Shown in pieces: positions 1 through 23,243 of a DNA stretch of 64,000 bases. Each line of letters begins with the position of its first letter. Position 1 is the stretch's first letter. The notes below the pieces were generated by a model. That model made no database searches, was not told the origin of the DNA, and saw nothing but the letters and a program-made list of their open reading frames with translations. The position numbers and the translations under genes are program-made. This DNA is from Chrysomallon squamiferum (taxonomy: Eukaryota; Mollusca; Gastropoda; Neomphalida; Peltospiridae). Location of the stretch: the NCBI GenBank assembly GCA_012295275.1, contig CM022674.1, positions 4,918,436 to 4,982,435 on the forward strand, given 5' to 3'.

Positions 1-546
1 AAAAAACATATATAAAAACGTATATATAACAACAACAACAGCAACAACAACAGTAATAATAATAATAAAGAAGAAGAAGAAGAAGAAGAAAAAGAAGAAA
101 ATGAATAATAATAATAATAATAATAACGACAACAACAACAATAATAAAGAAATAAATAAGAAAATAAATAAGTAAAATGTTAAGGTTATTGTTATCATAC
201 GAAAAAATGAAGACGAAGACGACGATATTGTGGTAAATATGATGATGATGATTCTGATAAAAGAAAGAAAGAAAGAAATCAAGCAGTGAAAAGAATGTCT
301 ATGTGTAACTTAAAAAAATAGTTATAATTTAGTCTTTAAGTTTATTTCTCTTTCTTTCTTATGAAAATTAATAAATGTAGTTAAACAATACCACACCTCG
401 ATTTTCTGTCAAACTGAAACATGTTTAAATCATGCTTTAATGTATATTTCTCTTTTTATCTAATTTACTTACCTGTTTCCATTTCTTCGCCCAAAGTCGT
501 CGACCTGATAATAAATTATTGTTATTACTATTATTATTATTATTAT

Positions 547-594
<48 letters not shown>

Positions 595-1457
595 CAGAAA
601 TGTTATTACTAGTAATAGTAGTTAACATTACAGTTGTAGAATAAGGACCTGTTGTTCTTGATTTTGTGACAATAAAAGATGTAACAGAATCATCGTAGTA
701 ATAGTAATAATTAACGGAGATTGTATTAGCTGAAGTGGAACTAGTAGTATTAGTAGTAGCAGAGGTTTTAGTAGAAGAAGTAACAGTAGTTATAGTTGTA
801 CCAGTTGTTGTAGTAATCTTAGTGATAGCAGCAGCAGCAGTGGATGTAGTACAGTTTCTACTAGTGTTATTACTACTTTTACCTCCAGTATTACTAGTTA
901 TAAAACTTGTAATACTATGTAAGAGTTCTTTCTCTCTAACATTAATTCTCTCTCGTTTTTATTCATCAACAGTTTTCCTTTAGATATTCTTACAATTTCG
1001 TGCGAATATTTCATTTCTGTGTGTCACTGTGTGTGTTTCTGTGTATGTGTGTATGCGAGCACGCCTCCCCATCTGAACACTGATAATAATAAAGATGTAA
1101 CAAAGAATGGCGTCACAGGTCAAAGTTATATAAGATGACGTCATGTTTTAACTTTTAATTATTATTAAACAATGAAATGTTTACTTTTAGTATCATCGTA
1201 GAATGACGTATAATACAAAATAAGTAAAAATTTATAACATTTATTCCTCTTATTTCTTCACCATATTTATTATTGAACTTATTTATTAATAATTTTATTG
1301 AGCTTTATTAATATCAAACTCTTTTTTTACCTCGTGATTTCGATCTTTGTTTTTTGTAACGTCTGTAGTAAACCCTTCCGAGCTTTCTGGCTCGACGTAT
1401 CTTTCGTAGCCAGTATGATACGTTACGTGTATACTGAAAATACATATACAGACACTC

Positions 1458-1522
<65 letters not shown>

Positions 1523-2503
1523 AATAATTAATTAATTAATCAATTAGTTAATTAAAACTAATAAAATTAATGTTTCCATACGATAAAATGATCAGGAAGA
1601 GGACAATAAGTCCATATTCTGATGATGATGATGATGATGATGATAAAAGAAAGAATGAATGAAAGGAAGAAATCAAACAGTGAAAAGAATGTATGTGTGT
1701 AAGTTAACAAAAAAGTAGTTAAAAAGTATTCTTAAGGTTATTTTTCTTTCTTATGATAATTAATAAGTTTACTTAAACAACACCCCAGCTCGATTCTCTA
1801 TCAAACTGAAACATGAATAAATCATGCTTTATTGTATATTTCTCTTTTTTCTAATTTATTTACCTTTCTCCATGTCTTCTTATAACGTGCAGTACCTGAA
1901 AATTAATATCGTTATTATTAGTAGTAGTAGTAGTAGCAATAGCAGTAATATTATTATTAGTACTAGTAGTAATGGTAGTAGTTGCAGTGGAAGAAGTTTC
2001 AGTAGTAGTAATTAGGTTTTAACATTACAGTACTAGAAGAAGCAGATGCTGTTATTGAATTTGTGACAATAAAAGATTTTATTGTAATAATAATAAAGTA
2101 TTAATAGTAATAATTAACGGTGGTATATTTGTGGTAGTAGTAGTAGTTGTAGTGGTAGTAGTAGTAGTAATAGTAGTAGTAGTAGTAGTAGAGGTTGTAG
2201 TAGTAGCATTTATACTAGTTATATTAGTATTTGATAAGTAGTATTTTATGAAATATATTACTCTTATTTTTTGAACTCATTTCTTAGTTGTCTTTTTTGT
2301 TATCATTTTTTTTTTTTAGACTATTAATATAAAACGATTTTTCTTACGGTATTTTTTATATCGTAGTCTGTATCTCTTTGCGAGCTTTCTGGCTCGATGT
2401 AGTTTCCGTTTCCAGCTTGCTACTTTACGTTTATACTGAAAAAACATATCCACACACGTATATATAACAACAACAACAACAACAACAACAATAATAATAA
2501 TAA

Positions 2504-2534
<31 letters not shown>

Positions 2535-2999
2535 AAGAAGAAGAAGAAGAAAATGAATAATAATAATAATAATAATAACGACAACAACAACAATAATAAA
2601 GAAATAAATAAGTAAATAAATAAGTAAAATGTTAAGGTTATTGTTATCATACAAAAAAATGAAGACGAAGACGACGTTATTGTGGTAAATATGATGATGA
2701 TGATTCTGATAAAAGAAAGAAAGAAAGAAATCAAGCAGTGAAAAGCATGTCTGTGTGTAAATTAACAAAAATAGTTATAATTTAGTCTTTAAGTTTATTT
2801 CTCTTTCTTTCTTATGAAAATTAATAAATGTAGTTAAACAATCCCCCACCTCGATTTTCTGTCAAACTGAAACATGTTTAAATCATGCTTTAATATATAT
2901 TTCTCTTTTTATCTAATTTACTTACCTGTTTCCATTTCTTCGCCCAAAGTCGTCGACCTGATAATAAATTATTGTTATTACTATTATTATTATTATTAT

Positions 3000-3038
<39 letters not shown>

Positions 3039-3886
3039 CAGAAATTTTATTACTAGTAATAGTAGTTAACATTACAGTTGTAGAATAAGGACCTGTTCTT
3101 CTTGATTATGTGACCATAAAAGTTGTAACAGAATCATCGTAGTAATAGTAATAATTAACGGAGATTGTATTAGCTGAAGTGGAAGTAGTAGTATTAGTAG
3201 TAGCAGAGGTTTTAGTAGAAGAAGTAACAGTAGTTATAGTTGTACCAGTTGTTGTAGTAGTCTTAGTGATAGCAGCAGCAGCAGTGGATGTAGTACAGTT
3301 TCTACTAGTGTTATTACTGCTTTTACTTCTAGCAATAAAACTTCTAATACTATGTAAGAGTTCTTTCTCTCTAACATTAATTCTCTCTTGTTTTTATTCA
3401 TCAACAGTACTCCTTTAGATATTCTAATAATTTCGTGCGAATATTTCATTTCTGTGTCTGTCATTGTGTGTATGTGTGTATGTGTGTATGCGAGCACGCC
3501 TCCCATCTGAACACTGATAATAATAAAGATGTAACAAAGAATGGCGTCACAGCTCAAAGTTATATAAGATGACGTCATGTTTTAACTTTTAATTATTACT
3601 AAACAATGAAATGTTTACTTTTAGAATCATCGTAGACTGACGTATAATATAAAACAAGTAAAAATTCATAACATTTATTACACGTATTTCTTGACCTTAT
3701 TTATTAATAATTTTATTGAGCTTTATTAATATCAAACTGTTTTTTTACCTCGTGATTTCGATCTTTGTTTTTTGTAACGTCTGTAGTAAACCCTTCCGAG
3801 CTTTCTGGCTCGACGTATCTTTCGTAGCCAGTATGATACGCTATGTCTATACTGAAAATACATATACACACACACATGGAAAAAAC

Positions 3887-3945
<59 letters not shown>

Positions 3946-4038
3946 TTAATTAATTAATCAATTAGTTAATTAAAACTAATAAAATTAATGTTTCCATACG
4001 ATAAAAATGATCACGAAAAGGACCATATTCTAGTAATC

Positions 4039-4073
<35 letters not shown>

Positions 4074-5428
4074 AAAAGAAAGAATGAATGAAAGGAAGAA
4101 ATCAAACAGTGAAAAGAATGTCTGTGTGTAAGTTAACAAAAAAGTAGTTAAAAAGTATTCTTAAGGTTATTTTTCTTTCTTATGATAATTAATAAGTTTA
4201 CTTAAACAACACCCCAGCTCGATTCTCTATCAAACTGAAACATGAATAAATCATGCTTTATTGTATATTTCTCTTTTTTTCTAATTTACTTACCTTTCTC
4301 CATGTCTTCTTATAACGTGCAGTACCTGAAAATTAATATCGTTATTATTAGTAGTAGTAGAAGTAGCAATAGCAGTAATATTATTATTAGTACTAGTAAT
4401 AATGGTAGTAGTTGTAGTGGAAGAAGTTTCAGTAGTAGTAATAGTATTTAATATTATAGTACTAGAAGAAGCAGATGCTGTTATTGAATTTGTGACAATA
4501 AAAGATTTGATTCTAATAATAATAACGTATTAATAGTAATAATTAACGGTGGTATATTTGTGGTAGTAGTAGTAGTTGTAGTGGTAGTAGTAGTAGTAAT
4601 AGTAGTAGTAGTGGTAGTAGTAGAGGTTGTAGTAGTAGCATTTATACTAGTTATAGTAGTATTTGAAAAGTAGTATTTTATGAAATATATTACTCTTATT
4701 TATTGAACTCATTTCTTAGTTGTCTTTTTTGTGATCATTTTTTTTTTTTAGACTATTAATATAAAACGATTTTTCTTACGGTATTTTTTATATCGTAGTC
4801 TGTATCTCTTTGCGAGCTTTCTGGCTCGATGTAGTTTCCGTTTCCAGCTTGCTACTTTACGTTTATACTGAAAAAACATATCCACACACGTATATATAAC
4901 AACAACAACAACAACAACAACAGTAATAATAATAATAATAAGAAGAAGAAGAAGAAGAAGAAGAAGAAAGAAGAAGAAAATGAATAATAATAATAATAAT
5001 AATAACGACAACAACAACAATAATAAAGAAATAAATAAGTAAATAAATAAGTAAAATGTTAAGGTTATTGTTATCATACGAAAAAATGAAGACGAAGACG
5101 ACGATATTGTGGTAAATATGATGATGATGATTCTGATAAAAGAAAGAAAGAAAGAAATCAAGCAGTGAAAAGCATGTCTGTGTGTAAATTAACAAAAATA
5201 GTTATAATTTAGTCTTTAAGTTTATTTCTCTTTCTTTCTTATGAAAATTAATAAATGTAGTTAAACAATACCACACCTCGATTTTCTGTCAAACTGAAAC
5301 ATGTTTAAATCATGCTTTAATGCATATTTCTCTTTTTATCTAATTTACTTACCTGTTTCCATTTCTTCGCCCAAAGTCGTCGACCTGATAATAAATTATT
5401 GTTATTACTATTATTAGTAGTAGTAGTG

Positions 5429-5462
<34 letters not shown>

Positions 5463-6316
5463 CAGAAATTTTATTACTAGTAATAGTAGTTAACATTACA
5501 GTTGTAGAATAAGGACCTGTTGTTCTTGATTATGTGACCATAAAAGTTGTAACAGAATCATCGTAGTAATAGTAATAATTAACGGAGATTGTATTAGCTG
5601 AAGTGGAAGTAGTAGTATTAGTAGTAGCAGAGGTTTTAGTAGAAGAAGTAACAGTAGTTATAGTTGTACCAGTTGTTGTAGTAATCTTAGTGATAGCAGC
5701 AGCAGCAGTGGATGTAGTACAGTTTCTACTAGTGCTATTACTACTTTTACCTCTAGTACTACTAATAATAAAACTTCTAATACTATGTAAGTGTTCTTTC
5801 TCTCTAACATTCATTCTCTCTCGTTTTTATTCATCAACAGTATTCCTTTAGATATTCTTACAATTTCGTGCGAATATTTCATTTCTGTGTCTGTCATTGT
5901 GTGTATGTGTGTATGTGTGTATGCGAGCACGCCTCCCATCTGAACACTGATAATAATAAAGATGTAACAAAGAATGGCGTCACAGCTCAAAGTTATATAA
6001 GATGACGTCATGTTTTAACTTTTAATTATTACTAAACAATGAAATGTTTACTTTTAGAATCATCGTAGACTGACGTATAATATAAAACAAGTAAAAATTC
6101 ATAACATTTATTACACGTATTTCTTGACCTTATTTATTAATAATTTTATTGAGCTTTATTAATATCAAACTGTTTTTTTACCTCGTGATTTCGATCTTTG
6201 TTTTTTGTAACGTCTGTAGTAAACCCTTCCGAGCTTTCTGGCTCGACGTATCTTTCGTAGCCAGTATGATACGCTATGTCTATACTGAAAATACATATAC
6301 ACACACACATGGAAAA

Positions 6317-6373
<57 letters not shown>

Positions 6374-8732
6374 TTAATTAATTAATCAATTAGTTAATTA
6401 AAACTAATAAAATTAATGTTTCCATACGATAAAAATGATCACGAAGAGGACCATATTCTAGTAATCATGATGATGATGATGATGATGATGATGATAAAAG
6501 AAAGAATGAATGAAAGGAAGAAATCAAACAGTGAAAAGAATGTCTGTGTGTAAGTTAACAAAAAAGTAGTTAAAAAGTATTCTTAAGGTTATTTTTCTTT
6601 CTTATGATAATGAATAAGTTTACTTAAACAACACCCCAGCTCGATTCTCTATCAAACTGAAACATGAATATATCATGCTTTATTGTATATTTCTCTTTTT
6701 TTCTAATTTACTTACCTTTCTCCATGTCTTCTTATAACGTGCAGTACCTGAAAATTAATATCGTTATTATTATTAGTAGTAGTACCAATAGCAGTAATAT
6801 TATTATTAGTAGTAGTAATAATGGTAGTAGTTGTAGTGGAAGAAGTTTCAGTAGTAGTAATAGTATTTAATATTATAGTACTAGAAGAAGCAGATGCTGT
6901 TATTGAATTTGTGACAATAAAAGATTTGATTCTAATAATAATAACGTATTAATAGTAATAATTAACGGTGGTATATTTGTGGTAGTAGTAGTAGTTGTAG
7001 TGGTAGTAGTAGTAGTAATAGTAGTAGTAGTGGTAGTAGTAGAGGTTGTAGTAGTAGCATTTATACCAGTTATAGTAGTATTTGAAAAGTAGTATTTTAT
7101 GAAATATATTACTCTTATTTATTGAACTCATTTCTTAGTTGTCTTTTTTGTGATTATTTTTTTTTTTTAGACTATTAATATAAAACGATTTTTCTTACGG
7201 TATTTTTTATATCGTAGTCTGTATCTCTTTGCGAGCTTTCTGGCTCGATGTAGTTTCCGTTTCCAGCTTGCTACTTTACTTTTATACTGAAAAAACATAT
7301 CCACACACGTATATATAACAACAACAACAACAACAACAACAGTAATAATAATAATAATAAGAAGAAGAAGAAGAAGAAGAAGAAGAAAAAATGAATAATA
7401 ATAATAATAATAATAACGACAACAAAAACAATAATAAAGAAATAAATAAGTAAATAAATAAGTAAAATGTTAAGGTTATTTTTATCATACGAAAAAATGA
7501 AGACGAAGACGACGATATTGTGGTAAATATGATGATGATGATTCTGATAAAAGAAAGAAAGAAAGAAATCAAGCAGTGAAAAGCATGTCTGTGTGTAAAT
7601 TAACAAAAATAGTTATAATTTAGTCTTTAAGTTTATTTCTCTTTCTTTCTTATGAAAATTAATAAATGTAGTTAAAAAATTCCCCACCACGATTTTCTGT
7701 CAAACTGAAACATGTTTAAATCATGCTTTAATGTATATTTCTCTTTTTATCTAATTTAATTACCTGTTTCCATTTCTTCGCCCAAAGTCGTCGACCTGAT
7801 AATAAATTATTGTTATTACTATTATTAGTAGTAGTAGTGGTGGTAGTAGTAGTAGTAGTAGTAGCAGAAATTTTATTACTAGTAATAGTAGTTAACATTA
7901 CAGTTGTACAATAAGGACCTGTTCTTCTTGATTTTGTGACCATAAAAGTTGTAACAGTATCATCGTAGTAATAGTAATAATTAACGGAGATTGTATTAGC
8001 TGAAGTGGAAGTAGTAGTATTAGTAGTAGCAGAGGTTTTAGTAGAAGAAGTAACAGTAGTTATAGTTGTACCAGTTGTTGTAGTAATCTTAGTGATAGCA
8101 GCAGCAGCAGTGGATGTAGTACAGTTTCTACTAGTGTTATTACTGCTTTTACCTCTACTACTACTAATAATAAAACTTCTAATACTATGTAAGTTCTTTC
8201 TCTCTAACATTCATTCTCTCTCGTTTTGATTCATCAACAGTACTCAATTAGATATTCTTCTAATTTCGTGCGAATATTTCATTTCTGTGTGTGTCACTGT
8301 GTGTGTATGTGTGTATGTGTGTATGCGAGCACGCCTCCCCATCTCAGCACTGATAATTATAAAGATGTAACAAAGAATGGCGTCACAGGTCAAAGTTATA
8401 TAAGATGACGTCATGTTTTAACTTTTAATTATTACTAAACAATGAAATGTTTACTTTTAGTATCATTGTAGACTGACGTATAATATAAAATAAGGAAAAA
8501 TTTAGAACATATATAACTCTTATTTCTTGACCTTATTTATTATTGAACGTATTTATTAATAATCTTATTGGGCTTTATTAATATCAAACTCTTTTTTTAC
8601 CTCGTGATTTCGATCTTTGTTTTTTGTAACGTCTGTAGTAAACCCTTCCGAGCTTTCTGGCTCGACGTATCTTTCGTAGCCAGTATGATACGTTACGTGT
8701 ATACTGAAAATACATATACAGACACTCATGCA

Positions 8733-8787
<55 letters not shown>

Positions 8788-9734
8788 TAAATAAATAATT
8801 AATTAATTAATCAATTAGTTAATTAAAACTAATAAAATTAATGTTTCCATACGATAAAAATGATCACGAAGAGGACCATATTCTAGTAATCATGATGATG
8901 ATGATGATGATGATAAAAGAAAGAATGAATGAAAGGAAGAAATCAAACAGTGAAAAGAATGTCTGTGTGTAAGTTAACAAAAAAGTAGTTAAAAAGTATT
9001 CTTAAGGTTATTTTTCTTTCTTATGATAATTAATAAGTTTACTTAAACAACACCCCAGCTCGATTCTCTATCAAACTGAAACACGAATAAATCATGCTTT
9101 ATTGTATATTTCTCTTTTTTTCTAATTTACTTACCTTTCTCCATGTCTTCTTATAACGTGCAGTACCTAAAAATTAATATCGTTATTATTATTAGTAGTA
9201 GTAGCAATAGCAGTAATATTATTATTAGTACTAGTAGTAATGGTAGTAGTTGCAGTGGAAGAAGTTTCAGTAGTAGTAATTAGGTTTTAACATTACAGTA
9301 CTAGAAGAAGCAGATGCTGTTATTGAATTTGTGACAATAAAAGATTTTATTGTAATAATAATAAAGTATTAATAGTAATAATTAACGGTGGTATATTTGT
9401 GGTAGTAGTAGTAGTTGTAGTGGTAGTAGTAGTAGTAATAGTAGTAGTAGTAGTAGTAGAGGTTGTAGTAGTAGCATTTATACTAGTTATATTAGTATTT
9501 GATAAGTAGTATTTTATGAAATATATTACTCTTATTTTTTGAACTCATTTCTTAGTTGTCTTTTTTGTTATCATTTTTTTTTTTTTAGACTATTAATATA
9601 AGACGATTTTTCTTACGGTATTTTTTATATCGTAGTCTGTATCTCTTTGCGAGCTTTCTGGCTCGATGTAGTTTCCGTTTCCAGCTTGCTACTTTACGTT
9701 TATACTGAAAAAACATATCCACACACGTATATAT

Positions 9735-9773
<39 letters not shown>

Positions 9774-9812: not shown

Positions 9813-10298
9813 AAGAAGAAAAAGAAGAAGAAGAAAAAGAAGAAGAAGAAAATGAATAATAATAATAATAACGACAACAACAACAATAATAAAGAAATAA
9901 ATAAGTAAATAAATAAGTAAAATGTTAAGGTTATTGTTGTCATACGAAAAAATGAAGACGAAGACGACGATATTGTGGTAAATATGATGATGATGATTCT
10001 GATAAAAGAAAGAAAGAAAGAAATCAAGCAGTGAAAAGCATGTCTATGTGTAACTTAACAAAAATAGTTATAATTTAGTCTTTAAGTTTATTTCTCTTTC
10101 TTTCTTATGAAAATTAATAAATGTAATTAAACAATACCACACCTCGATTTTCTGTCAAACTGAAACATGTTTAAATCATGCTTTAATGCATATTTCTGTC
10201 TTTATCTAATTTACTTACCTGTTTCCATTTCTTCGCCCAAAGTCGTCGACCTGATAATAAATTATTGGTATTACTATTACTATTATTATTATTATTAT

Positions 10299-10346: not shown

Positions 10347-11172
10347 CAGAAATTTTATTACTAGTAATAGTAGATAAACAGTATAGTTGTAGAATAAGGA
10401 CCTGTTGTTCTTGATTATGTGACCATAAACAGTATCATCGTAGTAATAGTAATAATTAGCTGAAGTGGAAGTAGTAGTATTAGTAGTAGCAGAGGTTTTA
10501 GTAGAAGAAGTAACAGTAATTATAGTAGTAGCAACTGTTGTAGTAATCTTAATAATAGCAGCAGCAGCAGTGGATGTAGTACAGTTTCTACCAGTGTTAT
10601 TACTACTTTTACTACTAGTAATAAAACTTCTAATACTATTTAAGTGTTCTTTCTCTCTAACATTAATTCTCTCTCGTTTTTATTCATCAACAGTATTTCT
10701 TTCGATATTCTTATAATTTCGTGCGAATATTTCATATCTGTGTGTGTCACTATGTGTGTTTTTGTGTATGTGTGTATGCGAGCACGCCTCCCCATCTGAA
10801 CACTGATAATAATAAAGATGTAACAAAGAATGACGTCACAGGTCAAAGTTATATAAGATGACGTCATGTTTCAACTTATAATTATTACTAAACAATGAAA
10901 TGTTTGCTTTTAGTATCATCGTAGACTGACGTATAACATATAATAAGTAAAAATTCATAACATTTATTACTCGGATTTCTTGACCTTATTTATTAATAAT
11001 TTTATTGAGCTTTATTAATATCAAACTCTTTTTTTTTACCTCGTGATTTCGATCTTTGTTTTTTCAGTCGTCTGTAGTAAACGCTTGCGAGCTTTCTGGT
11101 TCGACGTATCCTTCGTAGCCAGTATGATACGTTACGTGTATACTGAAAATACATATACACACACACATGGAA

Positions 11173-11230: not shown

Positions 11231-12217
11231 TAAATAAATAAATAATTAATTAATCAATTAGTTAATTAAGACTAATAAAATTAATGTTTCCATACAATAA
11301 AAATGATCAGGAAGAGGACAATAAGTCTAGTAATCATGATGATGATGATGATGATGATGATGATAAAAGAAAGAATGAATGCAAGGAAGAATTCAAACAG
11401 TGAAAAGAATGTATCTGTGTAAGTTAACGAAAAAAAGTAGTTAAAAAGTATTCTTACGGTTATTTTTCTTTCTTATGATAATTAATAAGTTTACTTAAAC
11501 AACATCCCAGCTCGATTCTCTTTCAAAGTCAAACATGAATAAATCATGCTTTATTGTATATTTCTCTTTTTATCTAATTTACTTACCTGTCTCCATTTCT
11601 TCCTATAACTTGCAGTACCTGAAAATTAATATCGTTATTATTAGTAGTAGTAGTAGTAGTAATAGCAGTAATATTATTATTAGTACTAGTAGTAATGGTA
11701 GTAGTAGTAGTGGAAGAAATTTGAGTACTAGTAATAGTATTTAATATTGTAGTACTATAAGAAGCAGATGCTGTTTTTGAATTTGTCACAATAAAATATT
11801 TTATTGTAATAATAATAACGTATTAATAGTAATAATTAATGGTAGTATATTTGTGGTAGTAGTAGTAGTTGTAGTGGTAGTAGTAGTAGTAATAGTAGTA
11901 GTAGTAGTAGTAGAGGTTGTAGTAGTAGCATTTATACTAGTTATAGTAGTATTTGATAATTAGTATTTTATGAAATATATTACTCTTATTTATTGAACTC
12001 ATTTCTTATTTGTCTTTTGTGTTATCAGTTTTTTTTTAGACTATTAATATAAGACGATTTTTCTTACGGTATTTTTTATATCGTAGTCTGTAAATCTTTG
12101 CGAGCTTTCTGGCTCGATGTAGTTTCCGTTTCCAGCTTGAGAGTTTACGTGTATACTGAAAAAACATATCCACACACGTATATATAACAACAACAACAAC
12201 AACAACAGTAATAATAA

Positions 12218-12248: not shown

Positions 12249-13538
12249 AAGAAAATGAATAATAATAATAATAATAACGACAACACCAACAATAATAAAT
12301 AAATAAACAAGTAAATAAATAAGTAAAATGTTAAGGTTATTGTTATCATACGAGAAAATGAAGACGAAGACGACGATATTGTGGTAAATTTGATGATGAT
12401 GAATCTGATAAAAGAAAGAAAGAAAGAAATCAAGCAGTGAAAAGCATATCTGTGTGTAAATTAACAAAAATAGTTATAATTTTGTCTTTAAGTTTATTTC
12501 TCTTTCTTTCTTCTGAAAATTAATAAGTGTAGTTAAACAATACCACAACTCGATTTTCTGTCAAACTGAAACATGTTTAAATCATGCTTTAATGTATATT
12601 TCTCTCTTTATCTGATTTACTTACTTGTTTCCATTTCTTCGCCCAAAGCCATGGACCTGATAATAAATTATTTGTATTACTATGATTATTATTAGTAGTA
12701 GTAGTAGTAGAAGCAGAAATTTCATTATTAGTAAAAGTAGTTAACAGTATATTTGTAGAATAATGACCTGTTGTTCTTCATTTTGTGACCGTAAAGGTTG
12801 TAACATTATCAACGTAGTAATAGTAATAATTAACGGAGATTGTATTAGCTGAAGTGGAAGTACTAGTATTAGTAGTAGCAGAGATTTTAGTAGAAGCAGT
12901 AATAGTAGTTATAGTAGTACCAATTGTTGTAGTAATCGTAGTAATAGTAGCAGCAGCAGTGGATGTAGTACAGTTTCTACTAGTGTTATTACTACTTTTA
13001 CCTCTAGTACTACTAGTAATAAAACTTCTAATACTATGTAAGTGTTCTTTCTCTCTAACATTCATTCTCTCTCGTTTTTATTCATCAACAGTACTGCTTT
13101 AGATAGTCTTACAATTTCGTGCGAATATTTCATTTTTGTGTGTGACTGTGTGTGTGTCTGTGTGTATGTGTGTATGCGAGCACGCCTCCCCATCTGAACA
13201 CTGATAATAATAAAGATGTAACAAAGAATGGCGTCACAGGTTAAAGTTACATAAGATGACGTCATGTTTTAACTTTTAATTATTACTAAACAATGAAATG
13301 TTTACTTTTAGCATCATCGTAGACTGACGTATAATACAAAATAAGTAAAAATTTATAACATTTATTACTCTTATTTCTTGACCTTATTTATTAATAATTT
13401 TATTGAGCTTTGTTAATATCAAACTCTTTTTTTACCTCGTGATTTCGATCTTTGTTTTTTGTAACGTCTGTAGTAAACCCTTCTGAGCTTTCTGGCTCGA
13501 CGTATCTTTCGTAGCCAGTAGGATGCGCTACGTGTATA
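1..13538 (-). repeat. Homogenised ~2.4-kb dimeric tandem repeat carrying cassettes beta8 to alpha18
   Basis: Landmarks inside the beta exons recur every ~2.39-2.45 kb, for example A-type betas at 1331, 3749, 6182, 8601, 11040 and 13436, and B-type at 2348, 4780, 7199, 9617 and 12068. Each dimer encodes about 85 residues: beta-A (34, core WLRKIRRARKL), alpha GRRLWAKKWKQ (11), beta-B (29, core SWKRKLHRARKLAK) and alpha RTARYKKTWRK (11). By hand count a typical dimer has 41 Lys/Arg, 10 Tyr, 5 Trp and no Asp/Glu. Units left of ~9.7 kb look nearly identical through introns as well as exons; divergence rises rightward. Base 1 lies a few bases from the acceptor of the next B-type beta exon. Confidence 0.9.
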
Positions 13539-13571
13539 CTGAAAATACATATACAGACACTCATGGAAATA

Positions 13572-13617
<46 letters not shown>

Positions 13618-14551
13618 CGTAATAATAATAATAATAATAATAATACCAAAAAAAAAAATCATAATTAATCAATTAATGGATTAAAAATAATAAAATTAAT
13701 GCTTCCATACGATAAAAATGATCACGAAGAGGAGGATGTTGTAGTAATGATTATGATGATGATGATGATGATAAAAGAAAGAATGAATGAAAGAAAGAAA
13801 TCAAACAGACAAAAGCAGGTATGTGTGTAAGTTAACAAAAAAAATAGTTAAAAAGTATTCTTAAGGTTATTTTTCTTTCTTATGATAATTAATAAGTTTA
13901 CTTAAACAACACCCCAGCTCGATTCTCTATCAAACTGAAACACGAATAAATCATGCTTTATTGTATATTTCTCTTTTTTATCTAATTTACTTACCTTTCT
14001 CCATGTCTTCTTGTAACTTGCAGTACCTGAAAATTAATATCGTTATTAGTAGTAGTAGTAGTAGCAATAGCAGTAATATTATTATTAGTACTAGTAGTAA
14101 TGGTAGTAGTTGCAGTGGAAGAAGTTTCAGTAGTAGTAATTAGGTTTTAACATTACAGTACTAGAAGAAGCAGATGCTGTTATTGAATTTGTGACAATAA
14201 AAGATTTGATTGTAATAATAATAACGTATTAATAGTAATAATTAACGGTGGTATATTTGTGGTAGTTGTAGTAGTTGTAGTTGTAGTAGTAGTAGTAGAG
14301 GTTGTAGAAGTAGGATTTATACTAGTTATAGTAGTAGCAATAGTTGTAGTAATGTTAGTAATAGCAATGGAAGTAGTACAGTTTCTACTAGTTTTACTAC
14401 AACTATCTCTAATACTACTAATATTATGTAAGCGTTCTTTCTCTCTAACATTATTTCTCTCTGGTTTTTCGTCATGAACAGTATTCCTTTAGATATGCTA
14501 ACGATTTCGAGCTATATCTCATTTGTGTGTATGTGTGTGTGTGTATGTGTG

Positions 14552-14603
<52 letters not shown>

Positions 14604-15005
14604 GAGTATGCCTCCCCATCTGAACATCGATAATTATAACGATGTAACAAAGATAAAAGTTACATAGGATGACGTCATATTTTTACTCTAAGTACTAAAC
14701 AATGAAATATTTACTTCTTATATCATCGTAGCCTGACGAATAATATAAAGATAACTAATATTTAATAAAATATATTACTCGTATTTATTGAACTCATTTC
14801 TTATTTGTCTTTTTTGTTATAAATCATTTTCTCTTTAGACTTTATTAATATAAGACGATTTTTTTTTTTTACCGTATTTTTTATATCGTCGTCTGTAAAT
14901 CGTTTCGAGCTTTCTGGCTTGATGTAACTTCCGTTTCCAGCTTGCTAGGTTACGTTTATACTGAAAATACATATCCACACATATATACATTATAATAATA
15001 ATAAA

Positions 15006-15045
<40 letters not shown>

Positions 15046-15961
15046 TTAATAATAATAACAATAATAATAATAATAAATAAATAAATAAGGAAAATGTTAA
15101 TGTTATTGTTATCATACGACAAAAATGATGACGAAGACGACGGTATTGTAGTAAATTTGATGGTGATGATTATGATAAAAGAAAGAAATCAATCAATCAA
15201 GCAGTGAAAAGCAGGTCTGTGTGTAACTTTACAGAAAAGAGTTATAATTTAGTCTTTAAGTTAATTTTTCTGTTTTTTTCTTATGAAAATTAATAACAGT
15301 AGTTAAAACGAAAACCCACCCACGATTTTCTGTCAGACTGACACATGCATGAATCATGCTTTAATGTATATTTCTGTATTTATTTAATTTACTTACGTAT
15401 TTCCATTTCGTCGTTCTACGCCCATGACCTGAAAATTAATATCGCTGTTATTATTATTAATATTTATATTAGTAGTAGTAGTAATACTGGTAGTAGTCGT
15501 TGTAGTAGTAGTAGTAGTAGAAGTAGTAGTAGTAGTAGTAGTACTAATCTCCCCGTCTTAACGTACGTTGATAATAATAAAGATGTAACAAAGAATGGCG
15601 TCACAGGTCAAAGTTATATAAGATGACGTCATATTTTAATCTTTTATTGATTAATAAACAATGAAATGTTTACTTTTCGTTTAATCGTCGAATGTCGTAT
15701 AGTATATAAAGATAAGTAATATTTGATAAAATATATTACTCTTATTTATTGAACTTATTTATTATTTCGTGTTTTTCTTATGAATCATTTCATTAAGCTC
15801 TATTAATATTAAACTTTTTATCTTTTTTTACCGCGTTTCTTAGATCTTTGTTTTTTATTTCGTCTGTGAACCCTTCCCAGCTTTCTGCCTCGACGTAATT
15901 TCCGTAGCCAATATGATACCTTACGTCTATACTGAAAATACATATACACACACACATGGAC

Positions 15962-16005
<44 letters not shown>

Positions 16006-16420
16006 TAACAATAACAACAACAATAATAATAATAATAATAACAATAATAATAATAATAAATGAATAAATAAATAAATAAATAATTACTTAATTATTTAAA
16101 ATAATAAAGTTAATATTTGCATACGATAAAAAATGATGACGAAGACGACAATATTGTGGTAAATATGATGATGATGATGATGATAAAAGAAAGAAAGAAA
16201 TCAAACAGTGAAAAGCATGTCTGTGTGTAACTTAACAAAAGTAGTTATTTATTCTTAAGTTTATTCTTCTTTCTTTCTTATGAATATTAATAAGTGTAGT
16301 TATTGTGTATTTCTCTATTTATCTAATTTACTTACCTGTCTCAATTTCTTCGCCAAACGCGCATTGCCTGAAAATTAATATCGTTATTTTTATTATTAGT
16401 AGTAGTAGTAATAGTAGTAA

Positions 16421-16452
<32 letters not shown>

Positions 16453-17303
16453 ATAGTAGTTGAAGAAGAAGTGGCTGCTGTTGTTGATTTTGTGACAACA
16501 AAAGTTGCTAGTGTAATAATAATAACGTAGTAATTATAATAATTAACGGTTGTGTAGTTGTGCCAGTAGTAGTAGTATTAGAGATTGTAGTAGTAGCAGT
16601 AATAGTAGTTATAGTAGTAGCAATAGTTGTAGTAGTGTTAGCAATAGCACCAACAGCAGTCCAAGTAGTACAGTTTCTACTATCATTATTGCTACTACTA
16701 CCTCTACTACTAAGAGTATTACTACTACTACTATTGTGTATGCGTTCTTTCTCTCTAACATTATTTATCTCTGTTTATACCTCATCAATAGTATTCCTTT
16801 AGATATGCTTACGATTTCGAGCTATATCTCATTTCTGTGTAGGTGTGTGTGTATGTGTGTCTGTGTGTGTGTATGTGCGTTTGTGTGTGTGTGTGTGTGT
16901 GTGTTTGAGCACGCCTCCCATCTGAACATCGACAGTTATAAAGATGTAACAAAGAAATGACGTCACAGATAAAAGTTATATAGGATGACGTAATATTTTA
17001 ACTCTCAGTACTAAACAATGAAATATTTACTTTTTCTATCATCGAAGAGTGACGTAAAATATAAAGATAAGTAATATTTGATAAAAATATATATTGCTCT
17101 TATTTATTGAACTTATTCGTTATTTGTCTTTGTTCTTATAAATAATTCTTTTTTTAGACTATTAAAATAAAACGAATTTTTTACCGTGTTTTTTATATCG
17201 TCGTCTGTAAAGTTTTACGAGCTTTCTGGCTCGATATAGCTTCCGTTTCCAGCTTGAGAGTTTACGTCTGTACTGAAAATACATATACCCAAACATGCAT
17301 AAT

Positions 17304-17369
<66 letters not shown>

Positions 17370-17574
17370 TTAAATATAAAATAAATAAATATATAAATAA
17401 ATAATGAAAAATAATAAAATGAATGTTTACAATAAAAATGATGACGAAGTCGATGATATTGTGCTAATGATGATGATGATAATAACGATGTCATAATAAT
17501 GATTATCATAAAAGAAAGAAAGAAAGAAGGAAAAAATCAAACAGTGAAAATCATGTAAGTTAACGAAAATTAAA

Positions 17575-17623
<49 letters not shown>

Positions 17624-17892
17624 GAATCAAACAGTGAAAATCATGTCTGTTTGTAAGTTAACGAAAATAGTTAAAAAGTATTCTTAAGGTTATTTTTCTT
17701 TCTTTCTTATGAAAATTAATAAGTGTAGTTAAACAATACCCCCACATCGATTTTCTGTCCAACTGAAACACGCATAAATCATTCATACATTAATGTATAT
17801 TTCTCTGTTTATCTAATTTACTTACGTTTCTCCATTTCTTCGCAGAACGCCCACGACCTGAAAATTAATATAGTTATTATTATTATTATTAT

Positions 17893-17929
<37 letters not shown>

Positions 17930-19234
17930 CGTAGTAGAAGTATAAGAAGTTTCAGTAGTGGTAATAGTTGTTAGCAGTATATGGTAGAATAAGTAGCTGC
18001 TGCATTTGATTTTGTGATAATAAAAGTTGTTATTGTAATAAGAACGTAGTAATAGTAATAAGTAACGGTGTTATAGTTGTGGTAGTAGTAGTAATTGCCG
18101 TGGAAGTAGTAGTAGTAGTAGTAATAGTAGTAGAGGTTGTAGTAGTAAGACTAGTACTACTACTACTAACATTATGTAAGCTTTCTTTCTCTCTAACATT
18201 AATTCTCTCTTTTTTCGTCATCAACAGTAATCCTTTAGATATGCTTACCATTTCTTGGGAATATCTCATTTGTGTAGGTGTCTGCGTGTGTATGTGCGTG
18301 TGAGAGAGAGAGAGGATGATAATAATAAAGATATAACTATGAAATGGCGTCACAGATATAAGATGACGTCATATTTTAACTTTTATTTATTACTAACAAT
18401 GAAATGTTTACTTTTCGTTTCATCATAGACTGACGTATATTTTAAAGATAAGTAACATTTGATAAAATATATTACTCTTATTCATTGAATTTATTTATTA
18501 TTTGTCCTTTTTGTTACGAATCATTTTATTAAGCTTTATAAATATCAAACTTTGTTTGTTTGGGGGTTTTTTATTGGGTTTTTTTACCTCGTGCTTTAGA
18601 TCTTTGTTTTTTATGTCGCCTGTTAAACCTTCCGAGTTTTCTCGCTCGGAGTAATTTCCGTAGCCAATTTGATAAGTTACGTCTATACTGAAAATACATA
18701 TCCAGACACACATGGAAAAAAACACAATAATAATAATAATAATAAGAATAATAATAATCAAAATAATAATAATAATAATAATAATAATTATGATAATAAT
18801 AGTAATGATATTAATAAATAAATAATCAAAAATAATAAAGTTAATATTTGCATACGATAAAAATCATGACGAAGTCGACGGTATTGTGGTAATGATGATG
18901 ATGATGATGATGATGATAAAAGAAAGAAAGAAAGAAAGGAATCAAACAGTGAAAAACATGTCTCTGTGTAAGTTAACAAAAAAGTAGTTTAAAAGTATTA
19001 TTAACGTTATTTTTCTTTCTTTTTTATGAAAATTAATAAGCGCAGTTAAAACAAGACCCCAGCTCGATTTTCTGTCAAAGTAAAACATCATTAAATCATG
19101 TTTTAATGTGTATTTCTCTGTTTCTCTAATTTACTTTGGATGTTTTAATCGACCGTCCTCTGTGAAGCCTTCTGGCGTAACTTGTCTTCCGTAGCCGATG
19201 TAACTTGTTACGTCTGAGCTGAAATGACATACAG

Positions 19235-19275
<41 letters not shown>

Positions 19276-20347
19276 TAATTAATTAATATTTTCAATTAGA
19301 TAATTAATTAAAGATAATAAAGTGAATGTTTGAATGCGGTAAAATGATGACGAAGTTGATGACGTTGTGGTAACGATGATGATGAAAGAAAGAAAGAAAG
19401 AAAGATGGAAAGAAAGAAAGAAAGAAAGAAAGAAACAAAGATAGATAGAAATCAAAGAATGAAAAGCATGTTTGTGTATAAGTTAACAAAAAATAATTTA
19501 AAAGTATTCTCATCGTTATTTTTCTTTCTTTCTTAGGAAAGTTAATAACAGTAGTTAAAACGAAAACCCCACCTTGATTTTCTGTCAAACTGAAACACGC
19601 ATAAATCATTCATACATTAATGTGTATTTCTCTGTGTATCTAATTTACTTACGTTTCTCCATTTTCTCCCCGTCCGGTAAATGTATTTTCTTGGTTTCCG
19701 GAGGCTACGCCCACGATCTGAAAATTAATATCGTTATTATTATTATTAGTAGTAGTAGTAGTAGTAGTAGAAGATGACTTTGAGTAGTAGTAATAGTAGT
19801 TGCAACAGTAGTAGCAGTAATAGTAATAGTAGTTGTAGTAACAGAGTAGTAGTACAAGAAGTAGTTGTTGATTTTCTGATAATAGAGATTGTTTTTGTAA
19901 CACAGTATAGTTGTTATGGTGTTGTAGTGATGGTAGTGGCAGTAGAAGCAGTAGCTGTAGTAATGTTAGTAGTAGTAGCAGCAGTGGAAGTAGTAGAGCT
20001 TCTACTAGTATTATTAAACTACTACCTCTACTACTACTACTACTACTATGTAAACGTTCTTTCTCTGTCATATTAATTCTCTCTGTTTTCCTCAAGAACA
20101 GCATTCATTTAGTTATTATTAGTATTTCGTGCGAATATCTCATTTAGATGTGTGCATGTATGCGTTTGTGTGTTTGTGTGCATGTGTGCGTTTGTGTGTT
20201 TGTGTGCGTGTTTGTGTGTGTACGTGTGTGTGTCCCATCTGAACATTACGTCGTCTGCGGGACAATCTGAGCTTTCTGTAGCGACGTATCTTCGGTAGTC
20301 GTAACTTCCTACGGCTAAACTGAAAATGAATATACACATATACATAC

Positions 20348-20388
<41 letters not shown>

Positions 20389-20556
20389 AATAATAATTTT
20401 GATAATAATAATAATAATAAATAAATAAATAAATAATAAATAAATAAATTAATCAATTAATTAAGTAAGTAAGTAAGTAAAAATAGTAAAGTGAATATTT
20501 GCATACTGTAAAAAATGATGACGAAGATGATGTTGTTGTGGTAATGATGATGATAA

Positions 20557-20600
<44 letters not shown>

Positions 20601-21561
20601 AAAAAGAAATAAAGAAAGAACGAAAGAAAGAAATCAAAGAATGACGAGCATCTCTGTGAGTAAGTTAACAAAGTATTCTTATCGTTATTTTTCTTTCTTT
20701 CTTATGAAAATTAATAACAGTAGTTAAAACGAAAACCCCACCTCGATTTTCTGTCAAACTGAAACACGCATAAATCATTCATACATTAATGTATATTTCT
20801 CTGTGTATCTAATTTACTTACGTTTCTCCATTTTCTCCCCCTCCGGTAAATGTATGTTCTTGGTTTCCGGAGGCTACGCCCACGATCTGAAAATTAATAT
20901 CGTTATTATTATTATAAGTAGTAGTAGTAGTAGTAGTAGTAGTACTAGTAGTAGTAGAAGAAAAAGACTTTGAGTAGTAGTAATAGCTGTTGCAACAGTA
21001 GTAGCAGTAATAGTAATAGTAGCTGTAGTAACAGAGTAGTAGTACAAGAAGTAGTTGTTGATTTTCTGATAATAGTGATTGTTTTTGTAATAGTAATAAC
21101 GTAGTAATAATAATAATTAAAGATAGTGTAGTTGTGGTGGTGTAGTAGTGATAGTAGTTGCAGTAGAAGCAGTAGCTGTAGTAATGTTAGTAGTAGCAGC
21201 AGCAGTGGAAGTAGTAGTATTATTAAACTACTACCTCTACTACTACTACTATTACTACTATGTAAACGTTCTTTCTCTCTAACATTAATTATCTCTCTTT
21301 GTTTTCCTCAAGAACAGCATTCATTTAGTTATTATTAGTATTTCGTGCGAATATCTCATTTAGATGTGTGCATGTATGTGTGTTTGTGTTTGTGTTTGTG
21401 TGTGTGTTTGTGTGTTTGTGTGCGTGTTTGTGTGTGTGCGTGTGTGTGTCATCTGAACATTACGTCGTCTGCGGAACAATCTGAGCTTTCTGTAGCGACG
21501 TATCTTCGGTAGTCGGAACTTCCTACGGCTAAACTGAAAATGAATATACACATATACATAC

Positions 21562-21593
<32 letters not shown>

Positions 21594-21612
21594 AAGAAGA
21601 AGAAGAATTTTG

Positions 21613-21650
<38 letters not shown>

Positions 21651-22116
21651 AATTAATTAATTAATTAATTAATTAATCAATTAATTAAGTAAATAAGTAA
21701 GTAAAAATAGTAAAGTGAATGTTTGCATACTGTAAAAAATAATGACGAAGATGATGTTGTTGTGGTAATGATGATGATGAAAGAAAGAAAGAAAGAAAAA
21801 AGAAATAAAGAAAGAACGAAAGAAAGAAATCAAAGAATGACGAGCATCTCTGTGAGTAAGTTAACAAAGTATTCTTATCGTTATTTTTCTTTCTTTCTTA
21901 TGAAAGTTAATAACAGTAGTTAAAACGAAAACCCCACCTCGATTTTCTGTCAAACTGAAACACGCATAAATCATTCATACATTAATGTATATTTCTCTGT
22001 GTATCTAATTTACTTACGTTTCTCCATTTTCTCGCCAAACGGATTATATGTTTTCTTGGTTTCCGAAGGAACCGCCGAAGAGCTGAAAATTAATATCATT
22101 ATTATTATTATTAGTT

Positions 22117-22147
<31 letters not shown>

Positions 22148-22247
22148 TGTAGTGGTAGTAGTAGTCATTGTAGAAGGAGGTTCGGGTTAGTGTGTGTGTG
22201 TGTGTGTATGGGTTAGTCTGTTTGTGTGTGTGTGTGTGTATGGGTTA

Positions 22248-22284
<37 letters not shown>

Positions 22285-22637
22285 CATTGATAATAGGCTA
22301 ACACATATATGGCGTTACAGATAAAAGTTATATAAGATAACGTCTTATTTTAACTGTTAATTATTACTAAACAATGAAGTGTTTACTGTTTTATATCATC
22401 TTAGACTGACCTATAGTATAAATATAAGTAAAATTTGATAAAATATTTTACACTTATTTATTGAACTGAAATTTATGGTTCCATTAAACAACGTTATAAG
22501 TATAATACTATTTATTTATTTATTTATTTAAAAATTTTAAATACTTACATCGTTTTTCTCGAATTTTTACATCGCTTTCGGAATCCTTTTCTGTAACAGT
22601 AACAACAACAGTTATTAATTATGATGATGATAATAAT

Positions 22638-22676
<39 letters not shown>

Positions 22677-22886
22677 TAATAGTAATAATAATAATATAAT
22701 AATAATAATAATAATAATATAATAATAACAAAGGCTAGTAGTAATAGCATAGGAGTAGTAGCAGAAGTACTCGCAATCGTAGCAGTAGTAGTAGTAGTAG
22801 TAGATGTAGTAGTAGTAGTTGTTGTTGTTGTTGAAGTTGTAGTAGTATGAAGAGAATAGAGGTGGTAGTAGTGAGGGACGAAGGGA

Positions 22887-22961
<75 letters not shown>

Positions 22962-23094
22962 TAAGAGAGAGGGAGAGAGTGAGTGCGCGAGAGAGAGAGT
23001 TCGTGAGAGAGAGAGTGAGTGTGTGAGAGAGAGTGCGTGAGAGAGAGAGTGAGTGCGTGAGAGAGAGAGAGTGAGTGCGAGAGAGAGTGAGTGC

Positions 23095-23180
<86 letters not shown>

Positions 23181-23243
23181 ACCTGTTGAGTAGACAAGGG
23201 CCACCAGAATAACGCAAAGGAAAAGGAGTAGAACGTACTTCAT
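473..23243 (-). CDS. Giant secreted polycationic protein gene built from tandem two-exon cassettes (3' end outside window)
   Basis: Family not recognised. I traced 38 coding exons by hand. In 5'->3' order: E1 23183-23243; E2 22549-22590; a1 22018-22082; b1 21464-21533; a2 20822-20886; b2 20250-20319; a3 19653-19717; fused b3/a 19135-19218; b4 18588-18687; a4 17826-17857; b5 17185-17272; a5 16336-16367; b6 15832-15931; a6 15397-15428; b7 14873-14960; a7 13995-14026; b8 13436-13538; a8 12625-12656; b9 12068-12155; a9 11587-11618; b10 11040-11142; a10 10219-10250; b11 9617-9704; a11 9135-9166; b12 8601-8703; a12 7764-7795; b13 7199-7286; a13 6716-6747; b14 6182-6284; a14 5353-5384; b15 4780-4867; a15 4294-4325; b16 3749-3851; a16 2926-2957; b17 2348-2435; a17 1864-1895; b18 1331-1433; a18 473-504. 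Every acceptor is AG, mostly TTTTCAG, and every donor is GT, mostly GTAAGT or GTAAAA. Alpha exons run phase 1 to 0 and beta exons phase 0 to 1. The join totals 2,436 nt, or 812 codons, with no stop. The product has a signal peptide, an acidic pro-segment ending KR, then repeats that are nearly half Lys+Arg with many Tyr and Trp and almost no acidic residues. The next beta exon should lie just left of base 1. Function is unknown; a secreted antimicrobial, adhesive or matrix polycation are possibilities. Confidence 0.85.
10825..10868. promoter_or_regulatory. Recurrent intronic CRE/TATA-like element (best copy)
   Basis: This 44-bp block contains TGACGTCA, then AGGTCAAAG, TATATAAG and a second TGACGTCA. 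It recurs in the longer beta-to-alpha introns, at about 1102-1145, 3536-3579, 5969-6012, 8372-8415, 13223-13266, 15591-15633, 16950-16993 and 18339-18371. A degraded copy lies at 22309-22352 in the intron after E2. In other copies the first CRE reads GGCGTCA. The shorter B-type introns of the homogenised array lack it. TGACGTCA is the CREB/ATF consensus; activity here is only inferred. Confidence 0.45.
13995..18687 (-). CDS. Intermediate cassettes: beta4 to alpha7
   Basis: Four beta exons (100, 88, 100 and 88 nt) alternate with four 32-nt alpha exons, so the A/B dimer pattern is already present. A-type betas carry NWLRK or YWLRK and end KKQRSK plus a short basic tail. B-type betas carry SSWKRKL or ASWKRKL and end RRRYKK plus H or Y. 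The alpha peptides are GRGRSAKKWRN, GNARLAKKLRQ, GHGRRTTKWKY and GTASYKKTWRK. Relative to alpha1-3 these alphas have lost exactly 33 nt (11 codons). Beta7 has a rare acidic residue (KLETIY). Introns are 470-850 bases. Confidence 0.8.
19135..19218 (-). CDS. Fused beta3-alpha exon created by an in-frame deletion
   Basis: This 84-nt exon begins like a beta exon (acceptor ATTTCAG, then LRRNKLHRLRK) but ends in alpha-type sequence whose donor GTAAATTAGAG matches the bases after alpha donors elsewhere. The beta-to-alpha intron, normally 450-850 bases, is missing. The spacing to the beta4 landmark is only about 530 bases instead of about 1.2 kb. Because beta is phase 0 to 1 and alpha phase 1 to 0, the fusion is phase 0 to 0 and keeps the frame (28 codons). 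Confidence 0.75.
19653..22082 (-). CDS. 5' diverged cassettes: alpha1, beta1, alpha2, beta2, alpha3
   Basis: Alpha exons here are 65 nt (22 residues), twice the later length. Alpha1 reads S-L-R-R-F-L-R-K-P-R...RKWRN. Alpha2 and alpha3 begin HRGRSLRKPR and end RKWRN. Beta1 and beta2 are 70 nt, starting FSRRK and containing LPKIRRYRKLRL, and ending RRR plus the first base of the next codon. Introns are 500-600 bases and hold AGT/ACT-type and TG repeats. The exons stay alignable with the 3' ones in Arg/Lys positions and splice phase. Their divergence suggests the oldest cassettes lie nearest the signal peptide. Confidence 0.8.
22549..22590 (-). CDS. Exon 2: acidic propeptide ending in a dibasic site
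   Basis: This is a 42-nt micro-exon with acceptor TGTTACAG and donor GTAAGTA, phase 1 in and phase 1 out. It encodes EKDSESDVKIREKR. It carries five of the few acidic residues of the whole protein and ends in Lys-Arg, a classical proprotein-convertase site, immediately before the first basic cassette. That layout (signal, short acidic pro-region, KR, cationic mature part) is seen in many secreted cationic peptide precursors. Cleavage here is inferred. Confidence 0.75.
22887..23174. repeat. GA/TC microsatellite in intron 1 of the cassette gene
   Basis: The tract is almost pure GA on the plus strand with scattered GTGA and GCGA interruptions. It starts directly after the exon 1 donor in the sense direction. 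Long Leu/Ser reading frames across it are artefacts of the repeat. Confidence 0.95.
23183..23243 (-). CDS. Exon 1: start codon and signal peptide of the cassette gene
   Basis: The ATG is at 23243-23241. It is followed by a textbook signal sequence, MKYVLLLFLCVILVALVY, with one Lys, an unbroken hydrophobic core and a polar end. The exon ends in phase 1 at ACA-G with donor GTAAGA. A TATA box sits about 45 bases upstream, implying a 5' UTR of roughly 15-25 bases. The first intron opens directly into a long GA/TC microsatellite. Confidence 0.85.

Follow-up and report, generated by a model that had tools for sequence, protein, structure and literature searches.

A 71-exon gene of Chrysomallon squamiferum predicted to encode a secreted, VWD-tailed polycation built from paired tandem exons

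Organization of the gene

The stretch of DNA analysed here (the window, 64,000 nucleotides, C10:4918436-4982435, where C10 is contig CM022674.1 of the gastropod Chrysomallon squamiferum) carries on its minus strand most of a gene that appears to encode a large secreted polycation, and its own assembly (404.6 Mb, 22 contigs) served as the genome for searches. Two leading exons (E1 and E2) and 36 repeat exons, comprising 18 alpha and 18 beta-type exons, were rebuilt from the raw sequence and join in phase into a stop-free frame of 812 codons. All 37 acceptors after E1 end in AG, all 38 donors begin with GT, and the exon phases alternate throughout (alpha 1 to 0, beta 0 to 1) with the sole exception of beta3 (19218-19135), a phase 0 to 0 exon that starts like a beta exon and ends like an alpha exon, and after which the next beta is still in frame. 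Seven further 10-kb stretches reveal that the array extends ∼17 kb past the window edge and then passes into non-repeat C-terminal exons. The full gene thereby comprises 71 exons over 43.9 kb, with 4,845 nt of coding sequence including the TAA stop and 1,614 residues, in the order signal peptide, pro-exon, 32 alpha and 32 beta exons, short linker and VWD domain. Phases match at every join, the VWD exons included, and an AATAAA lies 56 nt past the stop exon C5 (distance counted by eye). The exon lengths fall into few classes, all of them frame-preserving: 28 alpha exons of 32 nt, three of 65 nt and one of 35 nt, and 14 beta exons of 88 nt, nine of 103 nt, five of 70 nt, three of 100 nt and one of 84 nt. 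On the strength of the sequence we consider it very probable that this is one gene with this 71-exon architecture, encoding a VWD-tailed secreted polycation.

Features of the gene follow in order of transcription. Coordinates are those of the window unless prefixed C10; exons in the window derive from the exon rebuild, the motifs named in them from the motif scan, and the C10 rows from the further stretches.

23288..23293, minus: TATA-box-like TATAAA, ∼45 nt before the ATG (read from sequence)
23183..23243, minus: E1, ATG and signal-peptide-like MKYVLLLFLCVILVALVYST, ends in phase 1
22549..22590, minus: E2, pro-exon EKDSESDVKIREKR with furin-type REKR, phase 1 to 1
22018..22082, minus: alpha1, 65 nt, phase 1 to 0
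21464..21533, minus: beta1, 70 nt, phase 0 to 1
20822..20886, minus: alpha2
20250..20319, minus: beta2
19653..19717, minus: alpha3
19135..19218, minus: beta3, beta/alpha fusion exon, 84 nt, phase 0 to 0
18588..18687, minus: beta4, 100 nt
17826..17857, minus: alpha4, 32 nt
17185..17272, minus: beta5, 88 nt, A type
16336..16367, minus: alpha5
15832..15931, minus: beta6, 100 nt, B type
15397..15428, minus: alpha6
14873..14960, minus: beta7
13995..14026, minus: alpha7
13436..13538, minus: beta8, 103 nt, B type
12625..12656, minus: alpha8
12068..12155, minus: beta9
11587..11618, minus: alpha9
11040..11142, minus: beta10, predicted single helix 3-30 (AlphaFold2)
10219..10250, minus: alpha10, first R-G-R-R, across the beta10/alpha10 splice junction
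9617..9704, minus: beta11
9135..9166, minus: alpha11
8601..8703, minus: beta12
7764..7795, minus: alpha12, R-G-R-R junction
7199..7286, minus: beta13
6716..6747, minus: alpha13
6182..6284, minus: beta14
5353..5384, minus: alpha14, R-G-R-R junction
4780..4867, minus: beta15
4294..4325, minus: alpha15
3749..3851, minus: beta16
2926..2957, minus: alpha16, R-G-R-R junction
2348..2435, minus: beta17
1864..1895, minus: alpha17
1331..1433, minus: beta18
473..504, minus: alpha18, R-G-R-R junction
C10:4918432 to 4901441, minus: beta19 to alpha32, outside the window
C10:4900526-4900454, minus: linker exon C1
C10:4899819-4899769, minus: linker exon C2
C10:4899284-4899028, minus: VWD exon C3
C10:4898812-4898493, minus: VWD exon C4
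C10:4897839-4897818, minus: last exon C5 with the stop (TAA)

The repeat body of the predicted protein spans 1,340 residues, of which 46.8% are Lys or Arg, with a net charge of +622 and no Cys (R 26.1%, K 20.7%, L 8.9%, Y 8.9%, A 6.8%, W 5.4%, E 0.4%, Pro 0.5%). The signal peptide of E1 was judged by eye. The original prediction, made from the window sequence, had described a giant gene of at least 36 tandem exons and 812 codons with alternating phases and AG/GT borders, and this is borne out, with beta3 as the single exception and a true size that is larger. Its description of the repeats as about half Lys and Arg and nearly free of acidic residues agrees with 46.7% K+R and one acidic residue in 778 for the repeat part in the window, and its ideas of a secretion signal, a polycation and a polyprotein fit the gene as found. 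The acidic pro-exon ending in KR that it had also proposed holds for the REKR end, whereas the acidity does not hold for E2 as a whole, which has a net charge of 0 and is acidic only before REKR.

Coding evidence and splice sites

Within the 64 repeat exons no in-frame stop occurs in 1,308 codons, as against 21 in 1,307 and 84 in 1,276 codons of the other two frames. A scan for K/R-rich open segments bounded by AG and GT, with thresholds chosen after the exons were known, returned 50 segments on the gene strand and none in each of five controls, namely the opposite strand of the gene and both strands of 40 kb and of 49 kb of neighbouring DNA. Most exon copies are recent duplicates, so that the 36 repeat exons of the window do not amount to 36 independent observations. 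The alpha donors read GTAAGT in 29 of 32 cases, and the beta donors read GTAAAA, GTAAGA, GTAATG or GTAAAT. Judged by eye in an alignment, beta1 (21533-21464) and beta2 (20319-20250) appear to end where a deletion has joined them to intron DNA from further downstream, leaving the phase-correct donor GTAATG.

Growth of the array

From alpha8 to alpha23, each intron differs by 15–20% from that of the next unit and by about 1–7% from that of the next unit but one. The greater likeness of next-but-one introns indicates that the growing unit is a dimer (A+B) of about 2.4 kb. A second dimer family, alpha24-31, has next-but-one intron differences of 2.9–9.6%, and divergence is greatest among the 5′ units of the array. 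Divergence at non-CpG sites, counted without alpha1-3, alpha20, alpha32 and pairs with an intron difference outside 0.08–0.20, amounts to 0.234 for alpha exons versus 0.155 for introns, and to 0.133 for beta exons of the same length. Nei-Gojobori estimates, all from non-independent pairs, give dN 0.487 and dS 0.270 for alpha4-11, 0.145 and 0.303 for the B betas, 0.121 and 0.154 for the A betas, and 0.393 and 0.330 for A against B, and the young array holds 15 non-synonymous and no synonymous changes. Positive selection is not claimed.

The VWD tail and kinship searches

Pfam coverage comprised residues 1-427 and the last 240 residues. In the latter, the VWD family (PF00094) matches residues 48-196 of the 240 scanned with E = 1.1e-26 and 94.4 bits against a curated cut-off of 22.9, leaving 44 residues between the domain and the stop, and a GDPH motif lies inside the domain. 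At E<=1, no C8, TIL, E or other mucin module was found beside VWD in these 240 residues. At E<=1, a PDB sequence search of the VWD part returned 31 sequences, most of them from FCGBP, mucins and VWF. This end of the gene was outside the view of the original prediction and changes the kinship of the gene. Against its own genome, the VWD part recovered the two exons that encode it and matched three further places at no more than 33% identity, and a B-type beta query gave at least 12 matches, 12 of 12 at this locus, with 26 candidates scored.

For the first 427 of the 1,614 residues, no Pfam family at E<=10 and no PDB match was obtained, and hence no kinship with a known antimicrobial family in this part. 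None of 7,507 candidates drawn from 5.8 billion proteins (length range 235–747 aa) proved a relative of these 427 residues at E<=10, nor did either of two candidates for a 124-residue query (protein range 68–217 aa); with queries of 427 and 124 residues, a full-length relative of 1,600 residues lay out of reach. The searched database does contain animal proteins, as these were returned by a query with the neighbouring core-2/I-branching gene (see below). In the literature, searched by peptide strings and by topic over titles and abstract openings, no gene of the same design was found among the matches listed; six peptide strings gave no match, and a VWD domain joined to a massive polycation was likewise not found among the matches listed.

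Furin-type motifs and a proposed route of processing

The consensus of a furin-type site is R-X-[KR]-R. The 1,340-residue body holds 12 such motifs, compared with 42 ± 5.4 in 500 full shuffles, and 11 of the 12 are R-G-R-R sequences that arise across a beta/alpha splice junction, the Gly codon being split by the junction. These occupy 11 of the 31 beta/alpha junctions, one per dimer from alpha10 to alpha30, and end at residues 464, 549, 634, 719, 804, 889, 975, 1060, 1134, 1208 and 1282, i.e. at spacings of 85, 85, 85, 85, 85, 86, 85, 74, 74 and 74 residues; the twelfth motif is RIRR inside beta10. Inside the 23 distinct units, R-X-[KR]-R occurs once versus 21.1 ± 3.8 expected on shuffling of K/R identity (0 of 2,000 as low). 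On thinning to units less than 90, 80, 70 and 60% identical, the counts are 1 versus 15.8, 1 versus 12.2, 0 versus 7.8 and 0 versus 5.5 expected, the last with four units remaining and p = 0.001. The KR dipeptide is also rarer inside units than expected (17 versus 43.5). Furin-type sites are thus present at dimer junctions and avoided inside units, a placement that the original prediction had missed.

The units also carry a hydrophobic periodicity with a peak at 105°, close to that of a heptad. In a test made after whole-unit moments had given a mixed result, and on a chosen set of eight old-lineage units, the periodicity at 100° has p = 0.006 for the eight units pooled and p = 0.013 for the A unit alone. 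AlphaFold2 models exon beta10 as a single helix (residues 3-30, pLDDT 75.7).

These features may be read as those of a multipeptide precursor. With all exons spliced together in order, furin in the secretory pathway would cut after REKR and after each R-G-R-R at the beta/alpha junctions. The N-terminal product would be a polycation 430 residues long, or 407 should furin also act on the RIRR of beta10, followed by seven peptides of 85–86 residues with a net charge of +39 to +41, three peptides of 74 residues with a net charge of +33, and the VWD-bearing C-terminal part. Trimming of the terminal RR would expose Gly, a substrate for C-terminal amidation, and GDPH may self-cleave, as is reported for FCGBP. 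The released peptides are predicted to form cationic amphipathic helices with much Trp and Tyr, and at a mucous surface they would most likely serve as antimicrobials in host defence or in the control of symbionts; the VWD domain may anchor the precursor in mucus or help to pack it. Skipping of a single alpha or beta exon (beta3 excepted) breaks the frame and skipping of an alpha-beta pair does not, so that the number of copies per transcript could vary.

Several observations weigh against such processing or against the helices that it would release. Inside units, RR (54 versus 54.8 expected) and K-X-[KR]-R (15 versus 15.5) stand at the expected level and R-X-X-R is still common and only mildly avoided (56 versus 71.9). 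The body contains 245 adjacent K/R pairs, and together with the undepleted RR this means that dibasic convertases or trypsin-like proteases would shred it. R-G-R-R is lacking at 20 of the 31 beta/alpha junctions, including all those between the oldest N-terminal units, and its 11 copies may trace to one event in an amplified dimer, in which case part of that regularity would be inherited. Applied to single units the motif test lacks power (A unit 0 versus 0.4, B unit 0 versus 1.5), and the K/R-identity shuffle treats K and R as equivalent at every position of the helix. The B unit alone reaches only p = 0.065 in the periodicity at 100°, and the whole-unit hydrophobic moment at 100° is mixed over 22 distinct units (p 0.015 to 0.72). 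The AlphaFold2 model of beta10 was computed from one sequence alone and has a pTM of 0.30. Finally, the beta donors are weak, with a mean score of 1.77 compared with 7.07 for alpha donors and −5.33 for 1,966 other GTs, 13% of which score as high as the weakest beta donor; the consistency of this difference between beta and alpha donors makes regulated splicing worth a look.

On balance, we regard the multipeptide-precursor reading as a whole, with its release of about ten cationic amphipathic helices, as evenly poised on what the sequence offers, and the same holds for the step of cleavage into peptides. An antimicrobial role, argued from analogy, is somewhat less probable still, and is the most economical guess in view of the mussel linear cationic peptides with a Gly/Arg end. 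The fullest form of the proposal is a lineage-specific secretory peptide cartridge, in which paired exon types would build the helices, splicing would make a combined furin and amidation site, selection would clear furin-type and KR motifs from the helices, the amplified dimer would raise the dose and VWD would deliver the product to a mucous or armour surface; in its entirety this is tentative and rather unlikely.

Alternative explanations

Because the avoidance of motifs alone fits it as well, the main rival is an intact secreted polycation, from which the pro-segment is removed and in which the 1,340-residue chain stays whole, VWD linking it to mucus, glue or a mineral or chitin matrix. Lys/Arg together with Tyr/Trp would lend the material cohesion through cation-pi contacts and would bind polyanions that carry sulfate or phosphate groups. 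The adhesive and mineral-matrix roles suggested in the original prediction stand as rivals in this sense. The abundance of Tyr (8.9%) and Trp (5.4%), the rarity of furin-type sites (1 versus 21.1) and of KR (17 versus 43.5) inside units, and a VWD domain, which is typical of mucus proteins, all suit such a chain, whereas the recurrence of R-G-R-R once per dimer from alpha10 to alpha30 and the absence of any Pfam match to C8, TIL or another mucin module from the final 240 residues speak against it, and we hold it to be rather unlikely. Less probable again is a cassette gene, in which variable sets of alpha-beta pairs, or early ends at beta exons, would yield a family of shorter cationic proteins. 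The pairs run from phase 1 to phase 1 and could be skipped as such, the beta donors are much weaker than the alpha donors, and by eye the A- and B-type betas meet a stop within ∼35 nt past the donor, soon followed by AATAAA in the B types. Set against this, the array is flanked on both sides by phase-matching exons and ends in VWD, and beta1 and beta2 have, by eye, another phase-correct donor in place of the downstream stop and AATAAA.

The two remaining explanations are both highly improbable. A sperm or acrosomal basic protein, which the original prediction had listed, would account for the high K/R content and the fast change of the alpha exons, but that suggestion is left without support by the signal-peptide-like E1 and the VWD tail; the richness in Lys and Trp and the helical periodicity also disagree with it, and nothing found points to sperm. 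Protamines and sperm basic proteins are small Arg-rich nuclear proteins with no secretion signal, and the present gene has a signal-peptide-like E1, 1,614 residues and a VWD tail. A non-coding or decayed repeat array that merely resembles coding DNA is, if anything, a shade less credible. Many exon copies are recent duplicates, the introns are rich in microsatellites and the alpha exons diverge faster than the introns, as such an array might; 71 exons without stop or frameshift, complete from start to stop and with VWD intact, and K/R segments confined to the gene strand (50 versus 0 in five controls) oppose it, and the presence of TATA, ATG, signal-like start, stop and AATAAA together renders chance or decay very unlikely.

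Intron elements and neighbouring genes

Of the 32 introns that precede alpha exons, 23 contain a 165-bp stretch with the CRE palindrome TGACGTCA and a TATA-like motif (24 blast rows), always on the gene strand and with 74–100% identity, for example at window 13169-13333 and at C10:4940850 (between E2 and alpha1). At E<=1e-5, no copy was found elsewhere in the 134 kb examined. The stretch is carried along with the duplicated unit and might act as an internal promoter or an enhancer, or might be a passenger. A second recurrent feature of the alpha-beta introns is an acceptor-like tgtttcag ∼60 nt downstream of 15 of the 18 window alpha exons (e.g. window 7704 and 6656), followed by a TTTGAYAGARAATCGAG-like stretch that is open in the exon phase for ∼10–15 codons by eye, and that is possibly a poison or alternative exon, or a passenger.

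The neighbouring genes are as follows.

Window 28783-32184, plus: core-2/I-branching N-acetylglucosaminyltransferase-like exons (PF02485 match)
L012:2167-5218, minus: core-2/I-branching N-acetylglucosaminyltransferase-like exons (open reading frames judged by eye)
Window 55972-62453, minus: kinase piece (PF07714, E = 3.4e-11) and EGF piece (PF07645, E = 2.2e-7) (Pfam)
Window 55972-62453, minus: Ig-like piece, by eye, no Pfam match

The core-2/I-branching copies flank the array gene on both sides and on opposite strands, which places O-glycan branching enzymes beside a VWD gene. The window copy matched 776 proteins at E<=0.001, and among the best 120 of these 776, which are mostly from molluscs, the highest identity is 56% and the top row by E-value has 42%. 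As a guess, the kinase, EGF and Ig-like pieces may form a receptor tyrosine kinase gene.

Significance and comparison with known systems

If transcribed as read, the gene would be an extreme case of the exon-by-exon growth of a secreted polypeptide, in which a higher-order tandem repeat adds peptide copies within one gene and leaves phase and processing sites fixed, and in which a mucus-type VWD module is joined to a massive polycation. It would also supply natural cationic helices of 74–86 residues. Annotation pipelines readily miss exons as short as 32 nt, and such genes may therefore go unnoticed in other molluscs.

By analogy, the nearest known precursor designs appear to be those of bee apidaecin and ant hymenoptaecin. 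The apidaecin precursor of the honeybee comes from a single gene in which each of several exons codes for an antimicrobial peptide (PMC3415428), and in its light the statement of the original prediction that no family with this exon logic was known is too strong; apidaecins themselves are short proline-rich peptides (PMC11549390, PMC11347161). The snail gene resembles this design in having several peptide-coding exons in one gene and differs from it in that its unit needs two exons of complementary phase and its cleavage repeat spans four. Apidaecin is not known to have a VWD domain or paired exon types. The hymenoptaecin of Camponotus floridanus is a multipeptide precursor with a signal, a pro-sequence and six tandem repeats with RR processing sites (PMC3415428). 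The signal-like start, pro-segment and tandem peptide repeats in one frame recur in the snail gene, but the six repeats of hymenoptaecin lie in one exon with EAEP-RR spacers (PMC3415428), and no sequence kinship between the two is shown.

Among molluscs, the myticalins of Mytilus are linear cationic peptides with a convertase site and a Gly/Arg C-terminus that is expected to be amidated; each gene has three exons and encodes one short peptide of 23–42 residues, with a C-terminal acidic pro-region and no predictable secondary structure (PMC5577615). With myticalins and molluscidins the snail gene has in common its origin in a mollusc, predicted linear cationic peptides, a candidate convertase site and a Gly/Arg end that would be open to amidation, but its pro-exon is N-terminal, and it has 71 exons and a body with 0.5% Pro. 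With FCGBP, for which GDPH autocleavage has been studied and reported (PMC10880436), and with mucins, it shares a VWD domain with GDPH and the best PDB sequence matches; unlike FCGBP and the gel-forming mucins, VWD is the sole match in its last 240 residues, with none to C8, TIL or E, and a polycation takes the place of the mucin or multi-D chain. The excerpts of the comparison literature (PMC7142155, PMC10880436, PMC3415428, PMC5577615) describe no peptide unit that is divided between two paired exons of complementary phase and followed by a VWD tail. The gene would rank as a multipeptide precursor of a known general type if its product is processed, and as an unusual structural mucus or matrix protein if it is not.

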